NCBI RefSeq assembly: GCF_000374165.1
Contig: NZ_KB893759.1
Location: forward strand, 1 to 33,399
DNA: 33,399 bases
Source of the DNA: Parafrankia elaeagni
Lineage (GTDB): Bacteria > Actinomycetota > Actinomycetes > Frankiales > Frankiaceae
Reading direction: 5' to 3'
Numbering within the stretch: the first letter of the stretch is position 1; each line of letters opens with the position of its first letter. Shown here in pieces: positions 1 to 30,027 of this stretch. The notes beneath the pieces were generated by a model. That model had not been told where the DNA came from. It saw only the letters and a list, made by a program, of their open reading frames with translations, and did no database searches. The position numbers and the translations under genes are program-made.

Positions 1-81
1 CGTCCCCCGCGGGAACGCCGCCCGCGCGACCGCCACCGTCTGCGCCGGGATCTCCGGCAGCCCCTTCGGCTGCAACGACAT
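1..81 (-). CDS. IS1182-type transposase, N-terminal fragment (cut by window edge)
   Basis: Only the first 27 codons are inside the window. The peptide begins MSLQPKGLPEIPAQ and continues with VARAAFPRG, the typical opening of IS1182-family DDE transposases. The ATG at 81-79 follows a strong GGGAGGTGGGG ribosome site about five bases upstream, which decides the start. It lies on the same strand as the integrase but in another frame, directly after the point where integrase homology fades, so the insertion sequence probably landed in the 3' end of the integrase gene. The catalytic residues are outside the window, so whether this copy is intact cannot be judged. Confidence 0.6.
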   Translation of the reverse strand, partial: MSLQPKGLPEIPAQTVAVARAAFPRGT

Positions 82-165
82 GTGCCCCACCTCCCGCGGC
101 CCACGAGGCGACCCGGACCGCACAGGAGATCATGCCGCACCCACGACACCCAGCCGAATTAAGCA
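1..165 (-). mobile_element. Left part of an IS1182-like insertion sequence (approximate end)
   Basis: The element is inferred from the transposase start and from loss of integrase-like sequence at about 165-175. The exact terminal inverted repeat cannot be recognised because only one end is visible, so the boundary is a guess within about 20 bases. Confidence 0.4.
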
Positions 166-1630: not shown

Positions 1631-2729
1631 TGGTGTCCTCGGTGGTCGGGTCGATGTCGCTCGTGTCGGGTGCGTCCGCCGCACCGAGTGGTTCGCTGGC
1701 AGCGGCCACCTGTGCCAGCGCGCTCACGTCCGGGTCCAGGTTCGGGAAACCGTCCGGCAGGGCCGGTAGGGGCAAGCCGAGTTCGCGGAACTGTTCACGG
1801 ACGTCGGCAACGGAACGCTCCGCAACGTCCATCTCGCTGCGGCTGGTGTTGGTCAGCCACTCATCGATCGAGCCCGGGCTGTCCGTGTCGACCCGGTACT
1901 GATGAAGCTCCGGGTCGGACGTGGCCGACACGGCGTGGTACTTGTCGCGCATCCGCAACCAATGCTGGACGTGGCGTGCGTGCTCGGCGTACAGGTCGCC
2001 ATGGGCCTCTCGCCGTCCGATTTCCGCTGTCATCTCGTCGATCAGTTGTCGGGTGACCCGGCCCCGTAGTGCACGCAGACGTGCCGGGTCGTCTCCGGCG
2101 TCGGCGCGTTCCGAGACCAGCCGGTCTCGCTGTTCGCCGAGCGGGCGACCCCACAGGATGCGCGACAGGTAGGCCACAACCAGGGGGCGTTCACCGATCC
2201 GGCGGGCGGTTCTTTCCTCGGTCAGACCGACGGTTGCCGAGGCCACTAGGGCGTGCAGGTCGAAGTGGTCGGAGTTGTCGGCGATGGCGCCGAGTCGCAT
2301 GAGCCTGTCTCTGTCATCCCAAGCTCGCGTGACCTCGACGTTGCGTCGGACCCAGTCGTCGCGGTTCGTTTGCGCAGCCTGTGCCCTGAGAGCACCTTGC
2401 CCGGCGTAGATCTTGATGAGGTCGGACCCCGGCATGACCCGGTCTCCGACCTGAACCCAAACGTCCGGGTCGATCAGGTCCGGCAGCTTCACCAGGCGGA
2501 CGCACGCGATCGAGAGGATGTCGGGCAGAAGCGCAAGCTCCTCTGCGCTGATCGCTTTCTCGCCGCGTTCGAGTGCGGCTACCCGGGAGTAGTCCCAGCT
2601 CAGGCCATAGGAGCGTGCGGCTTTGGCGACATCTTCCTGTCGGACGCCCTTCCTCGCGGTCCGTACTCGGCGCACGCCCTCACCGATCACCGTGCGCAGT
2701 GAGCGTGAGTCGGTGTGATCCGGTGTCAT
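1614..2729 (-). CDS. XRE-type helix-turn-helix regulator next to the integrase
   Basis: A 371-residue protein with an N-terminal Cro/C1-type HTH (about residues 10-75, including EDVAKAARSYG and RVAALERGEKAIS), followed by a long alpha-helical region with no family I recognise. It ends in an acidic Asp/Glu/Thr-rich tail. I chose the ATG at 2729 over one ten codons upstream because the HTH starts shortly after it. No clear ribosome site precedes it, so it may be translated from a near-leaderless mRNA. It overlaps the integrase start by 17 bases, so the two are probably co-transcribed. It diverges from the excisionase operon across a short region with a palindrome at 2810-2827. By position it is the likely switch controlling integration versus excision and replication; that role is inference. 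Confidence 0.8.
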   Translation of the reverse strand: MTPDHTDSRSLRTVIGEGVRRVRTARKGVRQEDVAKAARSYGLSWDYSRVAALERGEKAISAEELALLPDILSIACVRLVKLPDLIDPDVWVQVGDRVMPGSDLIKIYAGQGALRAQAAQTNRDDWVRRNVEVTRAWDDRDRLMRLGAIADNSDHFDLHALVASATVGLTEERTARRIGERPLVVAYLSRILWGRPLGEQRDRLVSERADAGDDPARLRALRGRVTRQLIDEMTAEIGRREAHGDLYAEHARHVQHWLRMRDKYHAVSATSDPELHQYRVDTDSPGSIDEWLTNTSRSEMDVAERSVADVREQFRELGLPLPALPDGFPNLDPDVSALAQVAAASEPLGAADAPDTSDIDPTTEDTSEDHR

Positions 2730-14115: not shown

Positions 14116-14202
14116 GCGAGACGACCAGGCCGATGATGCCGGCCGGCTGACCGGCGCAGGCCTGGGTGGCGAGACGGCGGTTGATGCTGCGGTCTGCAAC
14201 AT

Positions 14203-14277
14203 GACCTGGTTGTCCAACAACCTGGTCAAGAAAGGTCTGGCCGAAGAAGGTTGACCAGGTTGTTGGACAACCAGGTC
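14203..14277. repeat. Perfect 27-bp inverted repeat, likely regulator-binding site
   Basis: Arms at 14203-14229 and 14251-14277 are perfect complements with a 21-base spacer. Each arm contains two ACCTGGT half-sites around TTGTCCAACAA, itself nearly palindromic. The TGGTTGTCCAAC core resembles operator palindromes I associate with GntR-type regulators of actinomycete plasmids and integrative elements; that link is from memory and unverified. As RNA it would form a very stable hairpin. Confidence 0.75.
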
Positions 14278-14333
14278 AAGAAGACTCCGACTCAACGCGC
14301 GCCGGGCGCGCCGGGCGCGCTGGGACATGGGAC

Positions 14334-16165: not shown

Positions 16166-16193
16166 AAGGGTTCGATTCCCGCCACCTCCACCA
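16166..16193 (+). other. Attachment-site remnant: 3' end of a tmRNA/tRNA gene
   Basis: GGGTTCGATTCCCGCC followed by ACCTCCACCA is a T-arm, acceptor strand and encoded CCA. The A before CCA and the CTCC acceptor fit the 3' end of tmRNA (ssrA) better than tRNA-Ser, which normally has G there. Only three of five T-stem pairs form (AAGGG against CCCGC) and there is no matching 5' half, so it is a duplicated target fragment, not a working gene. It marks the distal end of the integrase-bearing element. Confidence 0.65.
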
Positions 16194-16343
16194 CGATGAG
16201 TAACAATGCCCTGACCTGGGCAAATAGGTAAAATCTATGAGATCCGATGCTTGATCGAATAGGAGATGTCCAGGTCGGGGCATTGATCGTTTGGTTCGAT
16301 TCCCCGAACGTGCCGCAGATCTTGGTTGCGGAGCGTAGTTGCG
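16187..16343 (+). repeat. Copy A of the ~157-bp structured direct repeat
   Basis: It starts at the TCCACCA of the attachment remnant and is about 90% identical (counted by eye) to 29611-29768. It can fold: 16206-16220 pairs with 16269-16283 (15 pairs, two of them G-T), enclosing an AT-rich segment, followed by a small hairpin at 16294-16309 (GTTCG/CGAAC). Confidence 0.8.
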
Positions 16344-16440
16344 CGGAGGATTGGTCGGTCAATGGCCGCCGGACTTGTTCTGCGGGGGGACTCTCCGGTT
16401 TCGGTGCCGTGATGGAGCTGCTGACTACGGCAGCTGTTTG

Positions 16441-16859
16441 CCCGCCGCCGTCGCGCTGGTCGCCTTGGATGAAGCGGGGCAGGTAAATGCCGAGGTGCGC
16501 CGGGCGAACGAGAACACCTACGTCCGCGAGCTCTACGCGGAGGCCGTCAAGATCCTCAACGACGCCGACTGCGGGATCCATCCGTCTCGCCGGCATCTAT
16601 GCCTTGGAACGCATCGCCACCGACAGCCCGGCCGACCAGCGCACGGTGGTGGAGGTGCTGTCCGCTCGTCCGCGACCGCAGCACCAACCCGTTACTGCGT
16701 CTTCCGGCGCCTGCTGACAGTGATCCTTCAGTTCCGGCCGAGCGTCCCGCGGCGGACATCCGCGCTGCCGTTCAAGTCTTCATACGCCTTCCGGTGGACA
16801 CGACCATCCCTCGCTCTGACCTTGCTGGTGCGGACCTTACCGGGCCGGTAGTTCTAGAC
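16441..16859 (+). pseudogene. Frameshifted pentapeptide-repeat protein remnant
   Basis: Three reading frames join to give one recognisable protein: VNAEVRRANENTYVRELY in the first, RLAGIYALERIATDSPADQ and TVVEVLS in the second, and LPVDTTIPRSDLAGADLTGP in the third. This is the N-terminal to middle part of actinobacterial pentapeptide-repeat proteins, where an ALERIA...D..TV.EVL block precedes DLxGADLxG repeats. At least two frameshifts (near 16570 and near 16665) and loss of the C-terminal repeats make it non-functional. It is cut on the right by the opposing ImmA/IrrE gene. Confidence 0.65.
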
Positions 16860-17981
16860 GAGGCGGAGCCGCGGTCGGGTGTCCGTGTCGGTATGGCCGA
16901 GTAGCAGGCGGAGTCTGGGAAGGGTGCAGGCGAGTTCCTTGGCGAGGATGGCCTGGGTGAGGCCGTGCTCTTCGGCGAGGGCGTAGGCGCGGTTGAGGAG
17001 GATCGGGATCTCACCGGGGTATCCGGCGACGGGGCCGCGGGTGAAGAGGCCGAGTTGCCGGAGTTGGTTGAGGCGCTGGTAGGCGCGCCGGTAGGCCGCG
17101 TCCGAGACTGCGCCGACTTCCCGGCAGCGGTAGACCAGGGAGTCGACGGAGACGCCCCACTGTTTGCTGAGCTGGTCGAGAGCGTGCAGGTCGATGCGTG
17201 CGGGTAGTTGCGGTGTGATCTCTGCGCTCGGGGTGAGGAGTTCGGCGGCGAACGCGTCGGCTTCCTTCTCCTGGATGGCGTCGCCGGGTGCGGTGTCCGG
17301 GTGCAGGAGGAGGTGGCCGAGTTCGTGGGCTGCGGTGAACCGGTGACGGTAGACGTCGTTGGCGCGGTCCGGGGTGAGGACAACGACGGGGCGGGGCAGG
17401 TGGGAGGTGGAGAAGGCGTCGACGGTGGCCGTCGCGGTGCCGGCGAACGGGACGAGGGTGACGATCAGGCCGTGGTTCTCCATCGTCCGGACCAGGTGCG
17501 AGATCGGTCCGGTGCCTAGGTTCCACGCCTGTCGAAGTGCCCGCGCGGCTCCGGCCGGATCGGTCCCGGCGACGTCGGTGACGACTTCTCCTGCGGAGAA
17601 GCCTGGCAGGTCGACCGGGGGTAGCTGGATCCGCTTCTCCAGGGCGTAGGTCAGTTCCCACACCTGTTCGGTGAAGGCGATCGCCTTGTTGCGCTGGCTC
17701 ACCGGTGTTCGGCGCAGGCTCCGGAAGTGCGCCGCTGAGCTCTCCAGGCGGGCGTAGGGGCGACCGGCGGCGAGGAAGGTGGGCGGCACGTCGAGCACCT
17801 CGGCGAGCCGGCCGACGTGGTCCGGGCGCGGCGCGTGGGTTCCCGCTTCCCATTGGCCCACCGCAACCGGGGAGACTCCCATCTGGATGTTGGTGCGGCG
17901 GTGCCGCGGCGGCGGGCCCGAGCGGGCCTGCGTCGTCCCCGAACACGCGGTTTTCTGCCTCGGAGGTCGCGGTAGAACCAT
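16854..17981 (-). CDS. XRE/ImmA-IrrE metallopeptidase with eroded HTH
   Basis: A 375-residue protein. From residue 35 (GVSPVAVGQWEAGTHAPRP) the second half of an XRE HTH is normal, but the first helices are replaced by Pro/Arg-rich sequence that looks like an out-of-frame remnant. The ImmA/IrrE peptidase domain carries zinc motif HELGH at 219-223 with a downstream KEADAFAAELL providing the third ligand. Related proteins cleave repressors to induce mobile elements or stress genes. The start codon is uncertain because the true N-terminus seems lost: an IS630 fragment lies 60 bases upstream, so a rearrangement probably removed it. The peptidase may still fold; DNA binding is doubtful. Confidence 0.7.
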   Translation of the reverse strand: MVLPRPPRQKTACSGTTQARSGPPPRHRRTNIQMGVSPVAVGQWEAGTHAPRPDHVGRLAEVLDVPPTFLAAGRPYARLESSAAHFRSLRRTPVSQRNKAIAFTEQVWELTYALEKRIQLPPVDLPGFSAGEVVTDVAGTDPAGAARALRQAWNLGTGPISHLVRTMENHGLIVTLVPFAGTATATVDAFSTSHLPRPVVVLTPDRANDVYRHRFTAAHELGHLLLHPDTAPGDAIQEKEADAFAAELLTPSAEITPQLPARIDLHALDQLSKQWGVSVDSLVYRCREVGAVSDAAYRRAYQRLNQLRQLGLFTRGPVAGYPGEIPILLNRAYALAEEHGLTQAILAKELACTLPRLRLLLGHTDTDTRPRLRLV

Positions 17982-18040
17982 GTAATTTCCGCTTCCAAGG
18001 TTCGAAGTCCTCGCCGCCTTCGTTCGCGATCACACTTGAC

Positions 18041-18227
18041 CGCAGGGCCTGCGCCCCGCCGGTACGCCAGGTCTGCTGCCACGCGTAGGCGGACTTCCTC
18101 GAGACCCGCAGCCGCACAGCGATCTGCGGCGGGGACAGACCATCGGCGAACACCGCCGCGGCCCGCAGGGGGACCTGCGCACGGCGGGCAAGTCCGAAGC
18201 CGTCAACCCGCCACCATCGGAATACCT
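18041..18227 (-). pseudogene. IS630-family transposase, N-terminal fragment with frameshift
   Basis: The piece opens in one frame as RYSDGGGLTAS, the classic IS630 N-terminus, and continues in another frame as RRAQVPLRAAAVFADGL, then VRLRVSRKSAYAWQQTWR with TGGAQAL. These are the HTH of IS630-type transposases. The DDE catalytic domain is absent, so it is a relic. It abuts the damaged N-terminus of the ImmA/IrrE gene. Confidence 0.65.
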
Positions 18228-18350
18228 CGTATCCCGGGGCTACCCCACGCCCCCAAGGTCACCCCACGGATTCACGGTCGTTAACTTCGCACTCCGCATC
18301 CAGTTGTCCGATCAGCAGATCACTTTTCCATCAGGACTGATGGTTGTCGA

Positions 18351-19271
18351 TTATAGTAAGAAAAAATAAAAGCCGTCGCGGAGATGTTTGATGATTTGCG
18401 ATTTCAGGGCGGCGATGTTCTCGGGGGAAAGTGGTGCGATGGTATCTGGCGAATCCCGTGAGACTTGAGGAAGATATCGCTCGATCCAGAAAACTTCCTC
18501 TCCGTCGCGTTTCTTCCAATTTTTTATCATGATGGTGCGTGCTTCAGAGAGTGCGTCAGGGCGCTCTCGGGAATGCTGTGCGATGTAGTTCAATTCGTAC
18601 TCGATGAGTCGAGTATCGGGGTTCGATTTACGTGCAGCATCGACTCTCAAGCGCTCGAGAATTTGATCTACCGCCCGTGCGTCGCCGACCGACCCCAAAG
18701 CCTTGATAACAGCTTCACGAGTGAAGCCATCCGGTCGTATTAGTGCTTCTAGGAGATTCGGCGTGCAGGTAGGGTCGCCACGCATCCCAAGAATACCTAG
18801 AGCGCCGCTTCTGACAAACTTATTGGGATGGTTGGTGTACTTACCTACGGTCGCAGCGTCGACGGGACCGGATCCGAACCTCAGCGCACCGATGCAGGTA
18901 GCGAGAGTATTGCCTCGGAGCTTCGAAAGCTCAAGTATCAGAGCTCGCTCCCCGGCCTGCCCCCCCAAAACCAGGAGGCCTGATGCCAGTTCAGAGACGC
19001 TCGGATGCTGTACGGAGGCTAGCTTGACCAGTATATCAATTGGACAACTTAGGCACGAGCCTACGATCATAGCCCGCATGAGTTCTATCCGTCGAGTGTC
19101 GGACTGCTCCACGCTCAGCCTTTGGTAAAGAAGTTCACATGCCCAGGGAGAGCGTGATTTCGCGCTCTGAGCGATCCGGTCGACGAGCATTGCGAATTCT
19201 TCGTTTGAGAGTCGCTCCGCAAAGCGCCGCTCGTACCGGGATTTCTCTTCTGGGTCGCTACTCCCAAGCAT
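18351..19271 (-). CDS. HEAT-repeat protein, likely immunity protein of the RHS toxin
   Basis: A 306-residue alpha-helical protein built of HEAT/Armadillo-like helix pairs (HPSVSELASGLLVLGG, PNKFVRSGALGILGMRGD, TREAVIKALGSVGDARAV). It has no signal peptide or membrane segment, so it is cytosolic. It lies 100 bases downstream of the RHS toxin gene on the same strand, separated by a strong hairpin. AAGGAGA precedes the ATG by about ten bases. Base composition is clearly AT-richer than its surroundings and matches the toxin tail, as expected for a toxin/immunity pair acquired together. HEAT-repeat proteins are used as immunity proteins in polymorphic toxin loci; here that role is inferred from position. 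A small hairpin (18328-18343) follows the stop. Confidence 0.7.
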   Translation of the reverse strand: MLGSSDPEEKSRYERRFAERLSNEEFAMLVDRIAQSAKSRSPWACELLYQRLSVEQSDTRRIELMRAMIVGSCLSCPIDILVKLASVQHPSVSELASGLLVLGGQAGERALILELSKLRGNTLATCIGALRFGSGPVDAATVGKYTNHPNKFVRSGALGILGMRGDPTCTPNLLEALIRPDGFTREAVIKALGSVGDARAVDQILERLRVDAARKSNPDTRLIEYELNYIAQHSRERPDALSEARTIMIKNWKKRDGEEVFWIERYLPQVSRDSPDTIAPLSPENIAALKSQIIKHLRDGFYFFLL

Positions 19272-19300
19272 GGTTACGTGGTCTCCTTTGCATTCCCTGC

Positions 19301-19349
19301 AGGCATCCCATTACCCTAGAATCGCCCTTTGTCGGGTAATGGGATGCCT
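19301..19349 (-). promoter_or_regulatory. Perfect 16-bp inverted repeat between toxin and immunity genes
   Basis: Bases 19301-19316 and 19334-19349 are exact complements (AGGCATCCCATTACCC and its reverse) with a 17-base spacer. On the minus strand no T-run follows, so it is not a standard terminator. It could be an mRNA-processing or stabilising hairpin, an attenuator, or the site of a binding protein. Confidence 0.7.
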
Positions 19350-19373
19350 ACGAAATACGGAAGCTCGGTGGTG

Positions 19374-22300
19374 CTAGATTACGGCATTAGGATACCATCC
19401 GTCTCCGACCTTGTATCGCCACAGTATCCGCGTCCAGCCGTATGTTGCCGCGAGATAATTATCGGCGGCTTGCTGAGAGCGGGTATAGGATGAATTGTTT
19501 GCCTTTACTTCAATGATGTAGACCTTTTTAGTCTTGAGATCAACTACCAATAGATCTACAATGCGAAGGGCCCTCTGGCCCCCTCCGATCGGAATATTTT
19601 TATAGTGCACCTGCTCTTGCAGTCTGTGAGACGGCCACCTCTTCTTGACGTCCTGGCGGGCGTAAACCATCGCAATGTTTTCTTTTTCCTTGATCGTATA
19701 TTTGTGATAACCGTTACGATCTTTTATCCATAGAAACCTAAATGCGGGGCATGATACGGAAATTATGAAGCATTTTCCGTTTAGATCGAAGACGTTGTAG
19801 GGATCTTGACCTGCGTATTCGTATGGGTTGTTAGAGCCGCCGAAGATGGGGTCGACGGAGAGGAATCGGCCAGTGTGGGGGTTGTAGAGGCGGACTCCCA
19901 TGAGAACGATGCCGGAGAGCGTGTCGTGGGAGCGTTGTTGGCTACCGAGCCAGCCGTAGCGGGCGTAAGTAGTGGCAGGGGTGTAAGGCTGGCCGAATTC
20001 CTGGGTTTCTTGGAAGGTGGCCGGGGCGGTGGCGGCGGTGTCGTCGCCGACGGTGGCGACGATGTCGCCGTGCAGGTTGGTGAGCTGGAGGGTGACGGTT
20101 CCGCTGCTGTCCTGGATCGCGGCGAGGCCTCCGCTAAGGCCTTGGACGTTCCTGGTCCAGGTGCCGCCGGTTTGGCCGATCCAGGCCGGGCTGTCCCCGG
20201 AGGCAGAGATGTAGTGGTTGGTCCAGGTGGTGGTGCCCTGGGTCCAGGTGCGGATGCGGCGGGCAGTGTCGAGGGTGTAGGTACGGGTGGTGGTGCCCTG
20301 GGTTTCGGACGCGATCATGTCGTCGGCGTAGTAGCCGACGGTGAGGGCGCTACCACCGGCGTGGGTAGCGGGCACGGCAGTGGTGCGGCCGAGCAGATCG
20401 TAGGTGTAGCCGCTGTCGGTGATGCGGTCGGCTTGGTCGTAGCTGGAACTCAACGAGTAGGTGGGGGTGGTGGAGGTGGAGCAAGTGGGGTTGGGGGCAT
20501 TGGTGCCGGCGTCGGGGTAGGAGATGTGCTGGGTGCGGTTGTAATCGGCGTCGTAGACGTGGCGGCGGGAGGTGCACAGCAGACTGCCGGTGTCGTTTCG
20601 AATGTCGCGGGCTACTCCGAGTCGCCCGGCAGCGTCGTACAGATATTCACGGGCGCCGCTGGGGGATTCGATGACACGACCCTGGCCATAGATGTTGTCG
20701 ATCTGGGTGAAGGTGAGCCAGGTCGAGGCACCCTTGGTATAGGTGAGGCTGGTGGGGCGGCCAGTGCTGTTGTAGCGGGTGGTGGCGACGATCCCGTTCG
20801 GGTATGTCTGGGAAGTCGGTTTCCCGTCGCCGTCGTGAGTGGCGGTGAAGACGGAGGGGGCGGTTCCTGCGCCGATGTCGAGGCTGGTGACGAGACCGCG
20901 GTGTTCGGTGGCATTGTCGTAGGTATAGGTGTAGGTGCCCTTGCCGTCGTTGACCGTGGAGACCTTGCCATCGGTGTTGTAGGTGGTGCTGGTGGTGTTG
21001 CCGTCAGCGTCGGTCTGCGAGGTGATCTGCCCCCAGGTGTCATAACCGGTGGTCAGGGTGATGCTGTCCGCAGTCGCTGTGGTCTGCAAGCCTGTGGTGG
21101 TGCTGTAGCCGTAGGTGGTCGTGGGAACCGCGGCGCCGCCGTTGGCGGCGGGGCTGACCGCGAGTGCCAGCGAGGTCTTCCGTCCGGCTGCGTCGTAGGT
21201 GTAGTTGGTGGTGCGGGTGGTGGTGCCACCGGAGGTGACGGTCTCGGCCTTGGTGAGGGGCTGGTTGAGGTTGTCGTAGGTGTAGGTGATGACCGGCAGC
21301 GGGTTTCCGGAAGTGGGCTGGGCGGCGGGGCCGGTCGAGCAGGTCAGCCCGGCCCATGAGGCGTTGATGCAGCCGCCGGAGCCGTTAGGGGTGAAGTAGG
21401 AGAAGACAGTGGTGAACGCGTCGGTGCCGGCGGTGTTTGCCTTCGGCTGGCGAACTTCGAGGGGCTGGCCGGCGGTGTTGTAGTAGATGGCGCGGACAAT
21501 ATCGGGAGAGGCCCCGCCGCCCATCCAGGTCGTGACAGTGGTGGGCTTACGCAGGGTCCAGCCGGAGGTGGCGATATCCGCGCCGGTCTTCGCGGCGTAG
21601 CCGTTGATGGTTTTACGGGGGTCCACCTCAGCGCTGCCGGTGTAGGCAGTGGTCGTCACAGTGGTGGGTAGCCAGTACGGATCCGCCGAGGGCGGAGCAC
21701 CCTGGTCATAATCAGTATGGACGTGCTGGCGCACTGAGGACCGGACACCGTCGTTGCTAATGTAGCGGTGTTTGGGTCCGTAAGCATCGACAGGCGCGAT
21801 GCCTTCCGCACTGTAGATGGTGTCGGTATCGAGGAGTTGAGCACGGGCGGCAGAGTCGGTGAGGGCGGCGACGGTGGGGTCGGTGTCGGCAGTGGGGGTC
21901 AGTGCCTGGTTCCGGTTCTCCGCGGGCAGTTCACGGATGACGTTGCCGAACGTGTCGTATTCGGTGGTGGTGACCTGCCAGGCGCCGGCGCCGTAGGCAG
22001 CGGTGTTAACGGCCCGGCCGTCGCTGTTCAGATAGGTGATGTCGGCGTAGGGCCAGTCGGTGGCGGTCGGCGGGCTGGCGGGGGCGTGGCTGGCGGGAAA
22101 CACTGCGGTGCCCCAAGCCGGCAGATCCTGCTGGCCCCAGTCGTCAACCCGACCCGGGGACATGTCGACGGGTGCCGAGGAGCCCGACAACGGCACACCG
22201 TAGGCGATCCTGCTTGTGGCGGTTCCCGCCCCGACGGGGCGGGGCCGGCTGACAGTGATGAGTCGACCGAAACTGTCATAGTCAAACCCCCAGGTCTCCT

Positions 22301-25300
22301 GGCCGGGGGGAATGTAGCCCTGGATGCGGCCTTGAGCGTTATACCAGTAGAGGGTGGCGAGGTGTTTTCCACCCGAGGTGTCGAGGCGGGGGTCCCACTC
22401 GGCGCGGAGATGGCCGGTGGTGTCGTAGCTGTAGCGGGCGACCTCGACAGGGGCGGCGCCGTTTAGGCTCATGGAGATGGAGGTGAGCTGGCCGGTGTAG
22501 TTACCCCAGTCAGTCGAACTTCCACCGCTGCCAGTGGCTGTGGTGCTGGCAGCGTAGGTGAGGGCGAGGGCGCGACAGCCGGAGCCGAGGGTGCCGGAGC
22601 AGTCAACGCCCTCGGGGACGGGGCCGAGGATGCGGGTGACCCGACCCTGAGCGTCAGTGGTGAAGGTGGAGGTGGTGTTGGAGCCGAGTTCTTCGATGCG
22701 GTCGACGACCCAGAGGGTGGAGCCACTGACGGTCTTGGCATACCAGATGGTCTTGGTGCCGCTGGCATCGGTATGGGTGAATTTGGTGGCGGAGTCCTTG
22801 ATGAGTGTGGAGCCGTCGGCGGCGGTGTCGGTGACGCCGGTGTATTGGTAGGGGTAGCCGCCGGTGCCGCTGCGGGTGTAGACGGAGGGGGCGCCTTCTG
22901 GTGAGGTAAGGCTGACGTAGCCGCTGGTAGCAGTGTTGTCTTTCAGTGTGCGTTCGGCGGCGCCAGTGTCAGGGCCGGCAATGTTTGAGGTCCACCCGGG
23001 GCCGAAGATGCCGGTGGGGTCGGTGGTGGCGGCTGGTGGGGTGAGGGTGGTCAGGGTGCGGCCGACGGTGAGGGAACCGGTATAGGTCGGTATGGAGGCG
23101 TCGGTGGCAGACAGTGCGTAGTCGCCTGTGAGGAGAGCGACGGAGCCTGGGCCGACTGCGCTGACCTCATGGGTGTCGCTGAATGCATTGCGGGTGAACT
23201 GGATGGTGGTCGCGTCCGTGCAGGTGACGATAGCTGCGGTGGTGCGGAAGCAGGCCTGGATCTGGATGGGTCCGTCGGAGCCGCCGCCAAGGGTGCCCGC
23301 GATGTTCCAGATCTGGTTGTCGAAGGTGCCTGCGCCGTTGCGGGGGACGGGCCAGGTGGGGTGGTTGGTGGTGCCCTGGGTGGTGGTTTCGGCAGTGGGG
23401 ACGTCGGTCCAGGCGGTGGAGGGGTTGGCGCCGACCCGGTAACGGTAGGTCACCGAGACCTGTGATGAGGGTGCTTCGCCGCGGAGGGTCGCGAATCGTT
23501 GGGTGCGGGACTGCTCCTCGGGGGACGCCAGTGCGGCGTTGCCGACGCCGAAGGGGTAGGAGATGACGGGGGAGAGGTTGCCGGCGGTGTCGAGGGTGCG
23601 CAGGTAGAAGGTGTGCAGGCCCTCGTCGGTGGTCAGCGACGCGCTGGTGGTGGCGGTCGTCGAGGTCGTGGGTGAGGGTTCGTCGAGGCCGTAGAGGAAG
23701 CCTGCGGTATCACCGCCGGGTGAGGTCCAGGTGAAGGTGCCTGAGGTGGCGCTGGCCCAGCCGCCGGAGGGCCAGGCGGTGGAGGCGAGGGCGGTGGGGG
23801 TGGCGGGGGCGGTGGTGTCGATGGTGAAGGGGATCCAGGTGGACCAGTTCTGGGAGTAGTCGGTGCCGTCGTAGGCGCGGACTCGCCACTGGTAGCTGGT
23901 GCCGTTCGTCAGCAGCCCGGAGGGGACGGTCCAGGTCGCTTCGCTGTTCTGGGCGACGAACCCGCTGGAGCCCTGGGTGATTTTGGTGGTGCCGGCGGAG
24001 TTCCACACCTCGAAGTCCAGCCGCAGGGTGCCGCCGTCCGCGTCGGTCGCGGAGCCGGCGAGCCGTGGGGTGGTCGAGTTCGTCAGCACCGTGGGTGGGG
24101 TGCCGCCGCACTGGGTTGAGCAGGGTGAGGTCGACCGGGTGCCGACGGTGGAGGGGTAGGAGTTGTAGGTGGTCTCGATCCGGGGCGGGGTGGTGGTGTC
24201 CCCGGAGGCGAAGAACTTGTACGGCTCCCACAGCACCTCGTCCGGAGCGCGCAAGGTCAACGTCTCCGGGGAGGGTGTGCTGTTGGTGGCCCAGGCCTGC
24301 GCGAGGCCGGTGATGTCCAACGAGACGTCGCCGGAGCCGCAGAAGCCGCCGGCGTTGAAGGTGGTGTCGGACCAGTTGATCCCGTCGGCGGTGGGCTGGG
24401 TGTTCCAGGTGGTGCCGGAGGACAGGGCGGCGGAGCCCTGGACGACCATGCGTTGGGGGGTGCAGGTGTAGGAGCCGGCCTGGGTGAGTTTGAGGGCGGC
24501 GGCGGTGACGTGCTTGCCGTCGATGCCTGTGGTGTCGAACCGCAGGAACGACCGGTGCACCGGCCCGATCCCGTTGCCGACGCGCAGGTATTCATAGGTG
24601 TCGTAGTTCGTGGTGGCCGAGGTGCTGACGACGTCGGTGTCGAGGTTGTCGGGCAGGACCGCGGCCGGGTCGATGGTGACCGGGTACTGCCGGTCCTTGG
24701 CGGTCAGCCAGGCCTTGTCCGGGCGCAGGGTCAGCGCCGGGGTGGCGGTGGTGGGGCGTTCGAGGGTGGCGTCGACGGTGCGGGTCCGGTCGGGCAGGCC
24801 GGTCTTGGGGTCGACGTGGGCGTCCCACATCAGCGGGGTGGGGGACCGGGCGGCGAGCTTTCCATCGGCGGACAGCCGTAGTTCACCGCCCGGGGTGCGT
24901 TCGGCGGTCACGCCTTTGAGTCGTAGGGGCAGGTTGAGGGCGGCCTGGGCGGCGGCGGGGGTGTGGGCGACGATCTGGACGTCGTAGCCGGTCGGGGTGA
25001 CCTTGACCCGCAGGTCGGTGTCCTTCGCCACCCCCTTGTACAGGGCGACGTTGTTCTTCAGGTCCGGTGCGGGCAGAGCGGTCGGCCAGGTGAACGCGAC
25101 GTCGCGGTCGCCGTCGGTCAGCGTGGCGACGTCCGCGCCTGGCTTCCCGCCGCCGGCGGACAGGGCGATGGTCGCCTTGATGGCCTTGGGGAGGACCTTG
25201 CCGTCGACCACGGTGAGGGTGGTGTCGACGGGCTGCCAGTGGCCGTCGCGCTGGACCCGTACCACCCCGGAGGCCGACTCGACGGTGATGGAGCCGTTCG

Positions 25301-25574
25301 GGTTGACCAGGGTGCGGGTCGTCTCGGTGGTCAGGGAGGTGACTTCGATGCGGCGCTGTTCCGCGCGTGCGGCGAGCTGCGCGGTGACCAGGTCGGGACG
25401 TTCGGCCGGTCCGACCGGTGCCTGCGGCGCGTCCCTCTCGGTGTCGGCCGGTGCGGCGGACGCCGGTCTCACCGTGGGGAGGAACTGGGTGATGGTGGCC
25501 GCCAGCAGCGCGACCAGCAGAACGGACAGAGAACGGATGATTGACCTGCGACGACGTACGGGGAGCACCCGCAT
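19374..25574 (-). CDS. Secreted RHS polymorphic toxin with PD-(D/E)xK-like nuclease tail
   Basis: A protein of about 2,066 residues. ATG 25574 is chosen because it opens a classical Sec signal peptide: Arg-rich start, hydrophobic SLSVLLVALLAATI, and an ASAAPAD cleavage site near residue 38-40; GGAG lies eight bases upstream. The order is a DNRLRE-type module (about 310-460, YEYLRVGNG, HRSFLRFDT), fibronectin/Ig-like segments (about 470-700), a long RHS/YD-repeat region (about 950-1860, many YDxxGR units), and the RHS core (GVRLYNPHTGRFLSVDP, NPYEYAGQDP, about 1885-1925). The last ~140 residues are variable, lower in GC, and carry RIVDLLVVD...YIIEVKAN, the D...ExK pattern of PD-(D/E)xK nucleases. 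The RHS shell should encapsulate and deliver this nuclease to rival cells. The cognate immunity gene follows. Confidence 0.85.
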   Translation of the reverse strand: MRVLPVRRRRSIIRSLSVLLVALLAATITQFLPTVRPASAAPADTERDAPQAPVGPAERPDLVTAQLAARAEQRRIEVTSLTTETTRTLVNPNGSITVESASGVVRVQRDGHWQPVDTTLTVVDGKVLPKAIKATIALSAGGGKPGADVATLTDGDRDVAFTWPTALPAPDLKNNVALYKGVAKDTDLRVKVTPTGYDVQIVAHTPAAAQAALNLPLRLKGVTAERTPGGELRLSADGKLAARSPTPLMWDAHVDPKTGLPDRTRTVDATLERPTTATPALTLRPDKAWLTAKDRQYPVTIDPAAVLPDNLDTDVVSTSATTNYDTYEYLRVGNGIGPVHRSFLRFDTTGIDGKHVTAAALKLTQAGSYTCTPQRMVVQGSAALSSGTTWNTQPTADGINWSDTTFNAGGFCGSGDVSLDITGLAQAWATNSTPSPETLTLRAPDEVLWEPYKFFASGDTTTPPRIETTYNSYPSTVGTRSTSPCSTQCGGTPPTVLTNSTTPRLAGSATDADGGTLRLDFEVWNSAGTTKITQGSSGFVAQNSEATWTVPSGLLTNGTSYQWRVRAYDGTDYSQNWSTWIPFTIDTTAPATPTALASTAWPSGGWASATSGTFTWTSPGGDTAGFLYGLDEPSPTTSTTATTSASLTTDEGLHTFYLRTLDTAGNLSPVISYPFGVGNAALASPEEQSRTQRFATLRGEAPSSQVSVTYRYRVGANPSTAWTDVPTAETTTQGTTNHPTWPVPRNGAGTFDNQIWNIAGTLGGGSDGPIQIQACFRTTAAIVTCTDATTIQFTRNAFSDTHEVSAVGPGSVALLTGDYALSATDASIPTYTGSLTVGRTLTTLTPPAATTDPTGIFGPGWTSNIAGPDTGAAERTLKDNTATSGYVSLTSPEGAPSVYTRSGTGGYPYQYTGVTDTAADGSTLIKDSATKFTHTDASGTKTIWYAKTVSGSTLWVVDRIEELGSNTTSTFTTDAQGRVTRILGPVPEGVDCSGTLGSGCRALALTYAASTTATGSGGSSTDWGNYTGQLTSISMSLNGAAPVEVARYSYDTTGHLRAEWDPRLDTSGGKHLATLYWYNAQGRIQGYIPPGQETWGFDYDSFGRLITVSRPRPVGAGTATSRIAYGVPLSGSSAPVDMSPGRVDDWGQQDLPAWGTAVFPASHAPASPPTATDWPYADITYLNSDGRAVNTAAYGAGAWQVTTTEYDTFGNVIRELPAENRNQALTPTADTDPTVAALTDSAARAQLLDTDTIYSAEGIAPVDAYGPKHRYISNDGVRSSVRQHVHTDYDQGAPPSADPYWLPTTVTTTAYTGSAEVDPRKTINGYAAKTGADIATSGWTLRKPTTVTTWMGGGASPDIVRAIYYNTAGQPLEVRQPKANTAGTDAFTTVFSYFTPNGSGGCINASWAGLTCSTGPAAQPTSGNPLPVITYTYDNLNQPLTKAETVTSGGTTTRTTNYTYDAAGRKTSLALAVSPAANGGAAVPTTTYGYSTTTGLQTTATADSITLTTGYDTWGQITSQTDADGNTTSTTYNTDGKVSTVNDGKGTYTYTYDNATEHRGLVTSLDIGAGTAPSVFTATHDGDGKPTSQTYPNGIVATTRYNSTGRPTSLTYTKGASTWLTFTQIDNIYGQGRVIESPSGAREYLYDAAGRLGVARDIRNDTGSLLCTSRRHVYDADYNRTQHISYPDAGTNAPNPTCSTSTTPTYSLSSSYDQADRITDSGYTYDLLGRTTAVPATHAGGSALTVGYYADDMIASETQGTTTRTYTLDTARRIRTWTQGTTTWTNHYISASGDSPAWIGQTGGTWTRNVQGLSGGLAAIQDSSGTVTLQLTNLHGDIVATVGDDTAATAPATFQETQEFGQPYTPATTYARYGWLGSQQRSHDTLSGIVLMGVRLYNPHTGRFLSVDPIFGGSNNPYEYAGQDPYNVFDLNGKCFIISVSCPAFRFLWIKDRNGYHKYTIKEKENIAMVYARQDVKKRWPSHRLQEQVHYKNIPIGGGQRALRIVDLLVVDLKTKKVYIIEVKANNSSYTRSQQAADNYLAATYGWTRILWRYKVGDGWYPNAVI

Positions 25575-26306
25575 AACGCCAACTCCGATCCACCAGGAGG
25601 CCCTTCTCAGGGCGCGCGGAACTGGCGCGGCCCTGTAGGGAAATAGGGGCCGCGCCAGATCGTCGAAAATGGCAGAACCGAAACCTTGGACGCAAACGAA
25701 GACCAACGATCAACAGCCCAAAGCCACTACACGCTGTAACTGGAGGGTTGATGTGACGGCAGCTTCGACTACTTTGCGTGATAGAACTTGGGGGCCCGTA
25801 ACGGGACATACTTGCACCGAACCCGCGAGATCCGTCGGCGAGATGTGGGTCTTCTGTAGTGAAACCTGATGCACTTCGTAGGCGATGTCGGATCGGACAC
25901 ACACAAGTGCGTTACCTTGTGGAAACAAAACGAGAGTATTTCCAGAGGCCTGATCCGCCTGCGAAGAGGTCGGGTACGTCGCGCAACTCCGATCTCAGGC
26001 ACGCCGTACCCCCACTGTCCTGGATCCACACCGTCAGCGAGAGGTGTGGCGGAGCGCCACCATGCTGGGGGCACCCGGCTGCGGCTGGCAGTTGCGTAGC
26101 GTCACCCCCGTCGGTCTGCCGGCCGGCGAACCGCAGCTGCGGGCAGTAGGGAACTTTCTTTCGCCGATTGGCTGACGTGCCATTCGGTTCGTGCCATAGT
26201 CCTATCTTGGATCTTTGCGGGGGCGATCCTTCTTTTCGGCCTGCGGAATGTACCGCTGCCGCCTTCGCGATCTGCGCAGTGTCGCGCGCCCAAGGAAGAG
26301 TCATGA
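25575..26306. other. 732-base gene-free region between divergent genes
   Basis: I see no credible gene. It must hold the promoters of the RHS toxin (leftward) and of the transposase-like operon (rightward), but no clear -35/-10 pair can be picked. A small hairpin GTGGCG/CGCCAC lies at 26046-26060. Confidence 0.5.
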
Positions 26307-26906
26307 ATGGCGGCGACGCCGTCCTTTCACCTCGACGTCGAGGCAGATCTGGTGTTTTTCGAAGCCCGGCGCTTCCGCGCGCCGTCGACCGCTCAACAGC
26401 CCGCCGACAGCGCACAGGAGCAGATCGCCGTGATCCGTCCGACCAGGTACCCGCCGCCGTTCCGAGCCCGCGCGATCGCCTACGTCGCCCACATCAGAGA
26501 CGACCACCGGTCCACCTGGCAGGCCATCAAGACCGTCTCCGCGGCGCTCGGCGTCAGCACCGAAACGCTCCGCAGGTGGGTCCGCCACGCGGACACGGCA
26601 CCAGACCGGCAGGGGCAGACACGCCGCCAACACGCCGACCTCAGACACCTGCAGGAACAGAACACCCGACTACGCCGCGAGCTACACCTGCTGCGGACCA
26701 CCGGCACCAGCCCCGCACCACACCTGGCAGCCGACCCGACCACGCAGGCCACACCACCAGCACCTGCGCCAACACCCCCACAGCCGACGAGGGTGCGCCG
26801 ACCCGGACCCACCGTCACCATTCCGGAGCAGCAACCAGCTGAGCCGCCAGCGGTCAGCATCCCCCGCCCGGCCACACCGCAGACCGCCGGCGACAGCCAG
26901 ACATGA
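26307..26906 (+). CDS. IS3 OrfA-like HTH protein with proline-rich tail (possibly domesticated)
   Basis: A 199-residue protein. Residues about 45-130 match IS3-type OrfA proteins: RPTRYPPPFRARAIAYVA, then TWQAIKTVSAALGVSTETLR with RWVRHAD, then a leucine-zipper-like helix (LRHLQEQNTRLRRELHLLR). Unlike a normal OrfA it has a 44-residue N-terminal extension and a ~70-residue Pro/Thr/Ala-rich tail, and no OrfB or slippery site follows. Its stop overlaps the next ATG (ATGA), and the following genes encode a membrane protein and a lytic transglycosylase. This suggests a transposase DNA-binding part reused in a stable operon. AAGGAAGAG precedes the start. Confidence 0.65.
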   Translation: MAATPSFHLDVEADLVFFEARRFRAPSTAQQPADSAQEQIAVIRPTRYPPPFRARAIAYVAHIRDDHRSTWQAIKTVSAALGVSTETLRRWVRHADTAPDRQGQTRRQHADLRHLQEQNTRLRRELHLLRTTGTSPAPHLAADPTTQATPPAPAPTPPQPTRVRRPGPTVTIPEQQPAEPPAVSIPRPATPQTAGDSQT

Positions 26907-27235
26907 GCAGGACGGCAACCCGACACCAGCGCCCCCGAACGGCACCGGCCACGCTCTCCTACACCCAGCCCCTCCCACCAGCCTGCACCCCTCCCGCGAC
27001 ACACGGCCGACACCGGCGAACCTCCCACGCCACCTCCCGGCACCGCCGCCGTAGCCGCCGGCCCGCCCACCGGAGGCGAAGCACCGGCCTCGTCCGCCGC
27101 GGGTTGATCCGCACCGCGCTCCTGCCAGCGGTGCTTGCCACGGGCCTGCTGCTGTTCTGCACCGCGGCCGGCCCCCGCACCCTCACCGAGCAGTCCGACA
27201 CAGGCGGCACTAGGCCGGTCCGGCCCGGCAGCTGA
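26903..27235 (+). CDS. Small Arg-rich single-pass membrane protein (N-terminal half of a split transglycosylase?)
   Basis: A 110-residue ORF overlapping the previous gene by ATGA. The first 80 residues are very basic (RHRRRSRRPAHRRRSTG), followed by one membrane segment (TALLPAVLATGLLLFCTAAG) and a short outside tail. It ends at TGA 27233-27235. The lytic transglycosylase ORF begins one codon later in the same frame, so this looks like the cytosolic tail and signal anchor of what was one protein. Confidence 0.6.
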   Translation: MSRTATRHQRPRTAPATLSYTQPLPPACTPPATHGRHRRTSHATSRHRRRSRRPAHRRRSTGLVRRGLIRTALLPAVLATGLLLFCTAAGPRTLTEQSDTGGTRPVRPGS

Positions 27236-27238
27236 ACG

Positions 27239-28300
27239 ATGCCCGCGCTCGTGCCCGCCGACAGCGGGGACACCTCAGCAGCTACTACCGTCCCCACCCT
27301 CCAGGTCCTAGCCGACAGCGCCGTCTCACCCGCGACCACCACGGCCAGCACGATCACCCTGACCGCCACCGACCGCGGAATCCCCGCACGCATGCTGGCC
27401 GCCTACCAGCAGACCGCCGACGATCTCGCCCGCGACGTTCCCGGCTGCCACCTACCCTGGGAACTCCTCGCCGCCATCGGCAAAGTCGAATCCGGCCACG
27501 CCCACGGCCACCCGATCACCGCCGACGGCACCATCACCCGCCCCATCCTCGGCCCCGCCCTCAACGGCACCGCCGGTGTCGCCCTCATCCGCGACACCGA
27601 CCACGGCACCCTCGACCACGACACGGTCTACGACCGGGCCGTCGGCCCCCTGCAGTTCATCCCCACCACCTGGACCAGCGCCGGCCGCGACGGCAACCAT
27701 GACGGACGCCGCGACCCCCACAACATCCACGACGCCACCCTCGCCGCCGGCCACTACCTGTGCGCCCACGGCCGCGACCTCACCCACCCCGACCAGCTCC
27801 GCGCCGCGATCCTCGCCTACAACCCCTCGAACAGCTACCTGCGCACCGTCCTCACCTGGATGAACGGCTACCAGCAGAACAGCCCCACCGCCGTACCCGA
27901 CACCCCTACCCCGTCGACATCCCCAACCACCGACCCGCCCGCCGCGTCCACCTCACCCGCGCACCCGCCGACGACAGAACCGGCACGTTCCCCGGATCCC
28001 GACCTGCCAGCGCCGGCTTTTTCTCCCACCCCGAGGGTCGTTCCCGGGGTCACAATCATTCCGCTCACCCCACGGACACCAGACCCGACACCACCAACCA
28101 CGCCGTCGGCAGCGCCAACCACTCCCACCCCACCCGTCGCACCGAGCCCGCCGGCCACCCCGCCGTCGGTTACATCGCAGTCACCTTCCCCATCGGCCCC
28201 CGAGGTGTCACCGTCGACGACCGGCAACGGACTCGACGAGCCGCCGCCGCCGATCGAGGGCCAAGACGGCGAGCCAACCGCCACAGAGTTGACCGGGTGA
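27239..28300 (+). CDS. Lytic transglycosylase (SLT/MltB-like), Pro/Thr-rich tail
   Basis: A 353-residue peptidoglycan lytic transglycosylase. Catalytic Glu84 lies in AAIGKVESGH. Other family blocks are AVGPLQFIPTTW, GRDGNHDGRRDP (a possible Ca-binding loop), ATLAAGHYLCAHG and ILAYNPSNSYL. The C-terminal ~130 residues are a Pro/Ser/Thr linker suited to cell-wall spanning. It lacks its own signal peptide; the missing anchor is in the ORF just upstream, in the same frame behind a single TGA. Without readthrough the enzyme would stay in the cytosol. Such enzymes open the wall for conjugation or secretion, fitting the nearby SpdB-like gene and the secreted RHS toxin, but this link is inferred. Confidence 0.75.
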   Translation: MPALVPADSGDTSAATTVPTLQVLADSAVSPATTTASTITLTATDRGIPARMLAAYQQTADDLARDVPGCHLPWELLAAIGKVESGHAHGHPITADGTITRPILGPALNGTAGVALIRDTDHGTLDHDTVYDRAVGPLQFIPTTWTSAGRDGNHDGRRDPHNIHDATLAAGHYLCAHGRDLTHPDQLRAAILAYNPSNSYLRTVLTWMNGYQQNSPTAVPDTPTPSTSPTTDPPAASTSPAHPPTTEPARSPDPDLPAPAFSPTPRVVPGVTIIPLTPRTPDPTPPTTPSAAPTTPTPPVAPSPPATPPSVTSQSPSPSAPEVSPSTTGNGLDEPPPPIEGQDGEPTATELTG

Positions 28301-28722
28301 CCGCGGAGACACCTACCGCCGCGCCACGCGGGGGATCCGACTGACTGGACCGGGTCGGCGCTCCGCAGATGTGGATCGTGGGCGGCCGGCGCGGTCCGAC
28401 TGCCGACGTTCAGCGCGACCCAGTGCACAGTGCCAGACCGAGGAGATGTCGAGGCTGCGCCGACTGTAGGCCGAGATCCTCAACCGGGTCCAGCCTGCGC
28501 GCGCCGTCCAGCCGGCGCCGACAGGGGCACCCGCCTCACGGCCAGCGGCCCAGTCTGCGCGGCTGATCGCATCAGCCGAGGCATCTCCTCCGCTACGACC
28601 GCGACCACACCGACGCGGCCCGGTCGACCAGCGAACCGCGTAAATGGCCCTTGCGCGGTTCGGAGCCCTGCTCGCACCGTGGGGCGCTCGCCAGCCATCC
28701 TGCGGCTCCCGAGCCGATGCGC
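28301..28722. other. 422-base gene-free region between convergent genes
   Basis: No credible gene, strong hairpin or repeat is seen. A long minus-strand open frame crosses it but has no recognisable protein features and is overlapped by the SpdB-like gene. Confidence 0.4.
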
Positions 28723-29511
28723 CTACTCGGTGTCGATGGTGGGCGGCTGACTGTCGACGGCGGCCCCGGTGTCTCGGCGTATATGCGTGACCAGGGTGCG
28801 CGCGGTGCCCGTGCCGATGTGAAGTCGTTTGCGGAGCGTCTCGGCGGAGATGGGGCGCTGGTAGTGCTGCCAGTGGAGGACGTCTTCGGCGCGTGCGCGG
28901 TGGAGGAGGTCTTGCCGGCGTGCTTCCCGTTCGGTCTGACGTGATGTGGAGTCTGCTGTCTTCTGTCGGTGTTGGGTCGGCGGGGGTGGTGTTTCTGATG
29001 CCCGCGAGGGGTCTGTCCTCGTCGTTTCGATCGATGGGTGAAGGGCGACGGGTGAGGAGGTGGTCTGGATGGCTTGGAGGAGACCGGGCCCGACCTCTGC
29101 CCATCCGATAAGTAGAAGGGGGCCGACGGCGTCGAAGGCTGCTCTGCCGTAGTGGCCGGAGATGAGGGGTTCGGCGATGTTGAGGGCGAGGGTTACAACG
29201 CTGGCGAAGATCAGTAGGCGTCGGGCGGTGCGAATGACGTCGGCAGGCCCGCCGTGCAGGGTGAGGTGGCGCGCGCCGAGGAGGAGTCCGATGACGGAGA
29301 GATCGACTGCGGGTGCCACGAGGATCGCGACGTAGGTCGGGACCCCGAGGCGGATGCCGAGTGTGGCGACGTTGCCCAGCCCGAAGAGGAAGGTGAGCCC
29401 GACGACGGTTCCGACGATCACTGTGACCATGCGGGCGGTGCCGTTCGGACCCACCAGGTCTATGGAACGTGTGTTCGATCCGGCTGGCGAGGTTGCTGGC
29501 CGGGCGCTCAC
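28723..29511 (-). CDS. SpdB-like (DUF2637) spread protein with C-terminal HTH-like domain
   Basis: A 262-residue protein with three or four membrane segments in the first half (MVTVIVGTVVGLTFLFGLG; YVAILVAPAVDLSVIGLLLG; RRLLIFASVVTLALNIAEP; AVGPLLLIGWAEVGPGLLQ). This is the DUF2637 layout of SpdB-type proteins that help plasmids and integrative elements spread between mycelial compartments after transfer. The second half is charged and ends in an HTH-like segment (SAETLRKRLHIGTGTARTL). GTG 29511 has AGGGA eight bases upstream. No other transfer gene is near it, so it may be a leftover of a degraded element. It lies just inside copy B of the structured repeat. Confidence 0.75.
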   Translation of the reverse strand: MSARPATSPAGSNTRSIDLVGPNGTARMVTVIVGTVVGLTFLFGLGNVATLGIRLGVPTYVAILVAPAVDLSVIGLLLGARHLTLHGGPADVIRTARRLLIFASVVTLALNIAEPLISGHYGRAAFDAVGPLLLIGWAEVGPGLLQAIQTTSSPVALHPSIETTRTDPSRASETPPPPTQHRQKTADSTSRQTEREARRQDLLHRARAEDVLHWQHYQRPISAETLRKRLHIGTGTARTLVTHIRRDTGAAVDSQPPTIDTE

Positions 29512-29610
29512 TGGGCATCGTCCCTGGTCAGGAACCTCGTGGAGACCGGTCGGACGGTGATCTCGGGACCCTGAACCAAGATCAGGCGGTTCTTATTGTG
29601 TTGCGTCAGG

Positions 29611-29768
29611 TCCACCACGATGCGTAACGATGCCCTGACCTGGGTAAATAGGTAAGATCTATGAGATCTGATGGTTGATCGAATAGAAGACGCCCAGGTC
29701 GGGGCATTGATCGTCTGGTTCGATTCCCCGAACGTGCCGGCGGACCCCGATTGCGGAGCGTAGTTGCG
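29611..29768 (+). repeat. Copy B of the ~157-bp structured direct repeat
   Basis: It matches copy A (16187-16343) from TCCACCA onward but lacks the T-arm part of the attachment remnant before it. The outer stem is 29630-29644 with 29693-29707 (15 pairs, one G-T). Inside it AGATC and GATCT flank a TATGA loop. The final hairpin GTTCG/CGAAC is conserved. Confidence 0.8.
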
Positions 29769-30027
29769 GAGGGCCGTGCGGAGGAGCCGGAACTCGCGCG
29801 GTCATGATCCAGAAGATCCCGAGATGACGGTGCGCGAGTTGTTTCGGGGCTTGCCTTCATCTCGCGGGACGTGTGACGGCCTACACCCAGGGCGGGGCTC
29901 TGTCTGCACTGCCGTCTGGCGCGGTGCTACCCCGCCGGGTTGCCGTGCGGTGTGTCCGGCTGGCACGTAGGTGCCCCGTAGCTTCTTGGGAGGCGAGGGG
30001 AGTGTCGGCTCTCTGCTGGGGTAGGCG

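Follow-up and report, generated by a model that had tools for sequence, protein, structure and literature searches.

The D arm, a repeated end of an island in Parafrankia elaeagni

The stretch of DNA analysed here (the window, 33,399 nucleotides, which is the whole of contig NZ_KB893759.1, C90 in our numbering, of the 7.6-Mb genome of Parafrankia elaeagni) contains two structured direct repeats that bracket an island of 13.4 kb, and this raises the question of what kind of sequence the repeat is. Neither copy is a free-standing repeat: each one is the left end, here called the D arm, of an integrated element, the right end of which is a second conserved sequence, the P arm. It is likely that D is the attL-side end of a family of integrative elements of the Frankiaceae that mostly lack a recombinase, stack head to tail and make use of an integrase supplied in trans. 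The features that delimit the island are the following.

16168..16192, plus strand: 25-nt copy of the 3' end of ssrA (the transfer-messenger RNA, tmRNA, gene), right end of the element to the left
16187..16193, plus strand: core TCCACCA, of which TCCAC is the shared part, where the 13.4-kb element begins
16187..16349, plus strand: D arm, copy 1, left end of the 13.4-kb element, with a 17-bp main stem, an AT-rich interior and a 3' hairpin
16187..29617, no strand assigned: D-to-P element of 13,430 bp, with no recombinase match
29495..29617, plus strand: P arm, conserved right end, with matches in 32 of 36 Frankiaceae genomes
29611..29617, plus strand: core TCCACCA, where the 13.4-kb element ends and the next one begins
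29611..29774, plus strand: D arm, copy 2, left end of the next tandem element, which continues past the contig end

The copies at 16187-16343 and 29611-29768 are 89.9% identical across 158 columns, with 13,424 nt from start to start, in agreement with the original prediction, made from the letters of the window, of two repeats of about 157 bp and about 90% identity around a 13.4-kb island. Their alignment starts exactly at TCCACCA, as had also been noticed. The sequence at the left boundary, read at that time as an attachment remnant, is indeed one: the 25 nt at 16168-16192 are an exact copy of the 3' end of this genome's intact tmRNA gene, which lies on another contig (L037 8630-9003) and is followed there by a different element. 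ARAGORN called no intact tRNA or tmRNA gene in the window, and Rfam gave no match to curated families in it; on eight other loci, the Rfam matches were to tmRNA, tRNA, intron, riboswitch and CRISPR families only, none of them corresponding to D itself.

Distribution and genomic position of D arms

A BLAST search with copy 1 matched 16 of 59 genomes, its own among them. Only one of the 16 (G045) is from outside the Frankiaceae, the others being of this genus or family, and its match, of 21 nt, was taken as chance. Among named genomes, a pattern scan gave hits in Frankia sp. EI5c and Parafrankia colletiae Cc1.17, four stretches altogether. The covariance search that the original prediction had proposed did find homologues: a model (R1) built from an alignment of 17 sequences (A1) rendered 41 matches in 22 of 36 Frankiaceae genomes, a recurrence because of which the repeat cannot be ascribed to chance. 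When R1 was used with stricter filters on a class-wide sample of 296 genomes, 17 were matched, all of them Frankiaceae; 10 further Frankiaceae genomes were unmatched, as were the 269 others if those 27 are all the Frankiaceae drawn. One more D arm, next to ssrA in G010 (L110 2753-2916), was added by a local search, for a total of 42. The remote matches that were absent from the building set of R1 still start at the core. Most of the genomes compared are drafts, and the order of arrays was read within contigs.

As to their position, 17 of the 42 D arms lie directly behind a P arm and 21 behind the 3' end of a tRNA or tmRNA gene, as recognised by a strict T-arm pattern (GTTCRANYC) no more than 30 nt before the core; three further arms (G019:C69, G027:C222 and G015) have a degenerate T arm upstream, judged by eye, and one (G005:C54) is truncated. 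Among the 24 arms adjacent to a tRNA or tmRNA, the upstream gene is intact according to ARAGORN in eight cases, namely the tmRNA gene in G002, G006, G025, G001, G016 and G010, tRNA-Ala(CGC) in G007 and tRNA-Lys(TTT) in G024, and the remaining 16 have 3' parts without an ARAGORN call. ACCA is encoded at the junction in 20 of the 24. Since D is positioned at the core behind tRNA-type 3' ends, it must be one end of something that joins several tRNA-type genes, and from the two kinds of junction, 17 with a P arm and 24 with a tRNA or tmRNA 3' end, it follows that D is the left end and P the right end, with TCCAC as the core. The suggestion of a recombination element that marks serial integrations is thus upheld by 41 of the 42 relatives, which begin at an attachment core. 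The location downstream of ssrA, which had been part of the same suggestion, holds for the six intact tmRNA genes but was too narrow, as D is also found after tRNA-Ala(CGC), tRNA-Lys(TTT), the 3' ends of other tRNA genes and the P arm, and the ssrA sequence that precedes it in the window is no more than the 25-nt fragment.

The P arm, its reading frames and the arrays

To the right of the P arm comes TCCAC, followed by a D-type arm, an arm with a strong short hairpin, or other left arms. Up to ten P-arm matches were found per genome, many of them partial. In the window, two frames are associated with this arm.

29508..29618, minus strand: 36-codon frame within the P arm, which begins at the core and reads into the element, VVDLTQHNKNRLILVQGPEITVRPVSTRFLTRDDAQ
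28723..29511, minus strand: membrane-protein-like frame of 262 aa, the GTG of which overlaps the stop of the 36-codon frame

An initial count of 108 P arms contained shifted duplicates, and the recount gave 54 distinct windows of 87 nt, which are those with the motif, about 39 segments without it being excluded. The pairwise differences among these 54 windows at the three codon positions (8,806, 6,763 and 13,103, uncorrected for relatedness) present a third-position excess that fits a coding sequence. No Pfam or NCBIfam match was found for the putative peptide, and the same was the case for two homologues of the 262-aa frame in other P-ended elements. This second frame may resemble the spread (Spd) proteins of actinomycete integrative and conjugative elements (AICEs). 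A frame of 401 aa at 28313-29518 looks spurious, being rich in arginine; the one conserved in other elements is that at 28723-29511.

For 17 D arms the available sequence extends to a P arm, which delimits elements with lengths between 1,372 and 15,070 bp (the ends are damaged in G005:C54, and G025:C348:4905 reaches the contig end). The array in G025:C348 has four P junctions in 13.8 kb, one of them at the contig end, and further clear arrays are present in G019:C75, G014 and G033:C7. Genes of toxin-antitoxin type recur near P arms, such as PIN (G001:C202) and Gp49 with a helix-turn-helix (HTH) gene (G025:C348), and NTP_transf_2 with a HepT-like gene (G014 array) and AbiEii (G019:C75) are found there too; relatives of three of these were detected by BLAST in other D-to-P elements (G030, G004:C36 and G033:C7).

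Folding of the D arm

None of 200 dinucleotide shuffles folded as well as either copy in the window (z -3.84 and -3.90). In the 17 close copies 97.9% of the cells of the main stem are paired, a proportion that falls to 30-38% when the partners are made to slide. The stem around an AT-rich interior had been anticipated, with 15 pairs instead of the 17 of the family structure, and the change between T16269 and C29693 opposite a G is real (columns 37/86 of A1); on the other hand, the small hairpin that had been drawn, TTCG..CGAA, lies outside the family consensus, which has a different 3' hairpin, CTACG..CGTAG. Pairs changed on both sides number 4 of 27 in A1 and 15 of 27 in a second alignment, A2. 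The non-Watson-Crick cells are 70 G-U and 3 A-C in the close copies, which are related, so that these events are not independent, and 34 G-U, 17 A-C and 58 other mismatches in 16 remote arms. In an anchored permutation test, in which two conserved anchors were fixed and the flanks permuted, 37 of 2000 permutations were as good as the close copies and 484 of 2000 as good as the remote arms. Covariation in A2 looks strong (33 sequences, 65 cells changed on both sides vs 22.9 in shuffles), and it is not claimed, because A2 was fitted to the structure and, for the remote arms, the anchored test did not bear it out. A plus-strand hairpin is accepted as a predicted structure for the close family only; for the wider family, acceptance is limited to conservation of the inverted motif TGACCTG..CAGGTC and of a short hairpin inside it, AATAGGT..ACCTAT. 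In the wider family, this conservation could just as well reflect a group of sites for protein binding, such as the arm of an attachment site would be expected to have.

The original prediction had favoured a plus-strand RNA. The preference for one strand that it assumed does appear in the excess of G-U over A-C wobbles in the close copies, and single-stranded DNA would explain it as well. Taken together with the pairs changed on both sides and with the fact that 24 of the 42 D arms lie on the sense strand immediately behind a tRNA or tmRNA 3' end, it could mean that D is primarily a structured RNA, be it a 3' trailer, a processing or termination signal supplied after insertion, or a small RNA made from the tRNA promoter. 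We regard this as conceivable but doubtful: 17 of the 42 copies stand behind a P arm and not behind a tRNA, neither the promoter nor the terminator scans of D were informative, no plus-strand intrinsic-terminator pattern was found in it, no Rfam family matches D, and the anchored test is modest for the 17 close copies and not significant for the 16 remote arms, A2 being fitted to the structure.

Recombinases associated with D and P arms

A tyrosine-recombinase profile (17 sequences) gave a single match in the 17 D-to-P elements, a fragment of 110 aa in G033:C7, and a serine-recombinase seed, of which the first 400 residues were used, gave none in the same elements; the full serine-recombinase profile was dropped because it was contaminated by frames antisense to tmRNA. 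Among the matches listed for PF00589 and PF00239 in nine genomes, none is on the D contigs G002:C145, G002:C50, G006:C81, G001:C202, G025:C86, G025:C348, G003:C147, G007:C179 or G007:C104. No integrase match was found in the island at 16187-29611, and the following integrase frame of the window belongs to the element to the left of D copy 1.

2..1723, minus strand: tyrosine integrase frame

This integrase forms one family with those that adjoin ssrA in G003, G007, G017, G019 and G030. In G030, an open frame of 656 aa (Phage_integrase) is contained in an element of 7.0 kb with a CCAC core at one end (L120 12150) and a P arm at the other (L120 19144); beyond this element come one intervening element of the hairpin-arm kind and then a D element. 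A similar P-ended element in G003 has an integrase fragment of 206 aa. On account of the co-occurrence in G030, the ssrA-adjacent family is the best candidate for action in trans on D elements, a role that we would assign to it tentatively, as a possibility short of an expectation.

A second family of elements is present at the same site. In this genome, a large serine recombinase frame (L037 8877-10802, minus strand, in G000:C71) with the core TCCACC immediately follows the intact ssrA, and left-arm variants of this serine-recombinase element (TGTAGGCATTGCG) are found after ssrA in G009 and G028 and after a tRNA-like 3' end in G013 (L138 755). In the single-contig genome G030, the intact ssrA and a P-ended array similar to those at ssrA sites are 1.36 Mb apart (G030:C1 4147698 and 2784139), a separation that may mark a rearrangement or a second site.

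Sharing of modules between genomes

The VapBC-P module of G001 has relatives in G017, G025, G030, G032 and G035, with main pieces that are 91.1, 91.0, 89.6, 94.9 and 89.8% identical, respectively (a second piece in G032, 87.1%), vs tmRNA identities of 85.0, 85.3, 86.1, 84.2 and 88.2%. The shared stretch starts at about base 210 of the G001 element, just beyond its D arm. The AbiEii module of G033 is 94.1% identical in G000, 93.5 and 89.0% in G013, and 90.0 and 88.2% in G014, with tmRNA identities of 84.7, 82.5 and 85.5%; it is also present in G004, G019 and G023, the tmRNA yardstick covering the former three genomes. As far as sequence comparison goes, this pattern suggests that right-end modules are shared horizontally and left arms exchanged.

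Such sharing, at identities above those of tmRNA between distant genomes, bears on whether the D elements could be dead relics, that is, deletion derivatives of AICEs that keep their ends and cargo and are immobile. Some ends are in fact truncated (G005:C54, and many P matches that stop before the core), and integrase fragments occur in G033, G003 and G017. The precise ends of 41 of the 42 D arms and the conservation of the P-arm frame, with its third-position excess in the 54 distinct arms, argue in the opposite sense, as does the sharing itself, and we consider this explanation unlikely.

Proposed integration in trans and the remaining alternatives

The family of integrative elements is supported directly by the boundaries, the types of junction, the conserved arms, the 16 of 17 elements without a recombinase match, the tandem arrays and the modules that distant genomes have in common. 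We infer excision, the attP circle, the identity of the acting integrase and the role of the D hairpin. On its right, each element terminates in a P arm, and TCCAC, the core that the elements share, lies where tRNA and tmRNA genes have their discriminator/CCA end. In the circular form the joined ends would read P-TCCAC-D (attP), and integration of the circle after a tRNA or tmRNA 3' end, or at the core of a resident element, would produce tRNA-TCCAC-D...P-TCCAC-(next). Tandem insertion would leave P-TCCAC-D, with elements stacking head to tail, and in most tRNA-end insertions the D arm also provides an encoded CCA. The tyrosine integrase would be supplied in trans by P-ended, integrase-bearing relatives of the ssrA-adjacent kind. 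The D hairpin would most likely serve for arm-type binding of the integrase, as an end structure for the upstream tRNA or tmRNA transcript, or for both.

Several observations weigh against this proposal. The elements are not wholly free of recombinases, as an unclosed element in G025:C180 has an integrase fragment below the cut-off and a P-ended element of 5.7 kb (L114 12619-18364), the left arm of which has no R1 match, carries a Phage_integrase frame of 510 aa. No recognisable similarity links D to the left arms of the integrase-bearing elements, so that action in trans by their integrase is a guess. The VapBC-P module is less alike than tmRNA for G002 (90.6 vs 97.3%) and G000 (93.9 vs 97.1%), so that the sharing, which holds between distant genomes only and with a single RNA gene as yardstick, is no proof of site-specific movement. 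No circle, excision or empty site was seen among the genomes compared. The sequence GAGCTGGCC... after ssrA was considered as the native, empty downstream sequence, with P-TCCAC-GAGC as attR, and rejected, its homology of up to 1.4 kb running into other elements; as it is common to other elements, there is no clean pair of occupied and empty sites, and no empty site is claimed for the genus. The elements may be fossils.

An extension of integration in trans would be a cassette economy without an integron, in which a pool of integrase-less toxin-antitoxin cassettes with foldable D ends and peptide-coding P ends would be captured in trans at many tRNA and tmRNA genes of the Frankiaceae, at their CCA end; D may then act as a folded single strand, and the P peptide may be expressed only beside the D arm of another element or in the circle. 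This is a speculation, and the odds are against it. Integrons and their gene-cassette arrays are characterised by tandem cassettes, toxin-antitoxin cargo and foldable sites, and the D elements are likewise tandem, with toxin-antitoxin genes and a foldable arm at the recombination site. It is nevertheless quite improbable that D/P junctions act as attC sites at which an integron-type integrase captures cassettes, since none of the 36 Frankiaceae genomes has an IntI-type integrase (TIGR02249) over the curated cut-off, and, unlike integron cassettes, D elements are kilobases long and multi-gene, have the core beside the hairpin and not within it, and target tRNA genes. That D is an independent small repeat inserting by tRNA genes, similar to miniature inverted-repeat transposable elements or repetitive extragenic palindromes, is hardly credible in spite of its dispersed copies and inverted repeat, as all 41 untruncated copies begin at the core (3 by eye) and a P arm lies further on in 17 cases.

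Cargo of the window element and neighbouring features

The element between the two D copies of the window carries the following genes; eight frames of the island were scanned and no Rep or Tra domain was found in them.

16854-17981, minus strand: RmrA-type HTH/M78 protein (PADLOC RmrA models, E 1e-87)
18351-19271: HEAT-repeat protein
19374-25706, minus strand: RHS/YD-repeat protein of 2,110 aa with a DNRLRE domain
26307-26906: transposase-type HTH protein
27239-28300: transglycosylase-domain protein

The first of them would be a gene of defence or toxin-antitoxin type at the left end of the island. A relative of the RHS/YD-repeat stretch, 75.8% identical, is found in a tandem D element of G006 (L035 470-1272). 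The ssrA elements of G002 and G006 have in common a stretch of 8.1 kb and 97% identity with transport and phosphatase-type genes, a set that we tentatively read as possible arsenic resistance; this likeness may reflect inheritance, the tmRNA genes being also 97% identical. Twelve matches to CRISPR-DR12 repeats lie at L042 13627-14376, about 1.4 kb from the D arm in G007:C104, and a perfect inverted repeat of 28 bp with a 21-bp loop is located at 14202-14278 of the window, in the element to the left of D copy 1.

Comparison with known systems

The AICEs of Frankia, as presented in PMC3218068, are defined by Int, Rep and Tra genes and are found at tRNA 3' ends, with a tandem pair at tRNA-Lys and one element that was excised despite a truncated integrase. 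D elements resemble the AICEs described there in their host group, in their insertion at tRNA 3' ends (24 of 42 D arms at tRNA or tmRNA 3' ends, 3 of them by eye) and in their tandem arrangement, and differ from them in being mostly without a recombinase; the island of the window lacks the combination of integrase, replication and FtsK-type transfer genes. Section 11 of that paper, on Frankia AICEs, does not describe D or P arms, and no name for them appears in the titles and abstract openings of the top-ranked literature results, which does not establish their absence from print.

Serial islands downstream of ssrA have been described in Dehalococcoides, 15 of them without an integration module and suggested to be possibly cis-mobilizable, with a serine recombinase, 20-bp repeats and insertion in the T-loop of ssrA (PMC3146451). 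Unlike those islands, D elements have a core of 5-7 bp at the CCA end, use several tRNA genes, have a tyrosine integrase nearby and possess conserved modular ends.

The closest known kind is that of integrase-less islands that accrete at tRNA and tmRNA sites. The end sequences defined here allow such islands to be found and delimited in the Frankiaceae, which have many integrative elements and few genetic tools, and they make testable the use of several tRNA genes by non-autonomous islands, the identity of their integrase and the reason for which a conserved short frame starts at the recombination core. In common with cis-mobilizable elements (CIMEs) and their accretion, D elements have no integrase (16 of the 17 D-to-P elements have no profile match, and one has a fragment), keep attL/attR-like ends, here the D and P arms with the TCCAC core, and stack in tandem at one site, and the presence of an integrase-bearing P-ended element in G030 is a co-occurrence that would be compatible with mobilisation by a related recombinase. 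In contrast to CIMEs, the D and P ends are modules conserved across many elements, the former a foldable arm and the latter an arm with a short reading frame, and the elements use several different tRNA genes.

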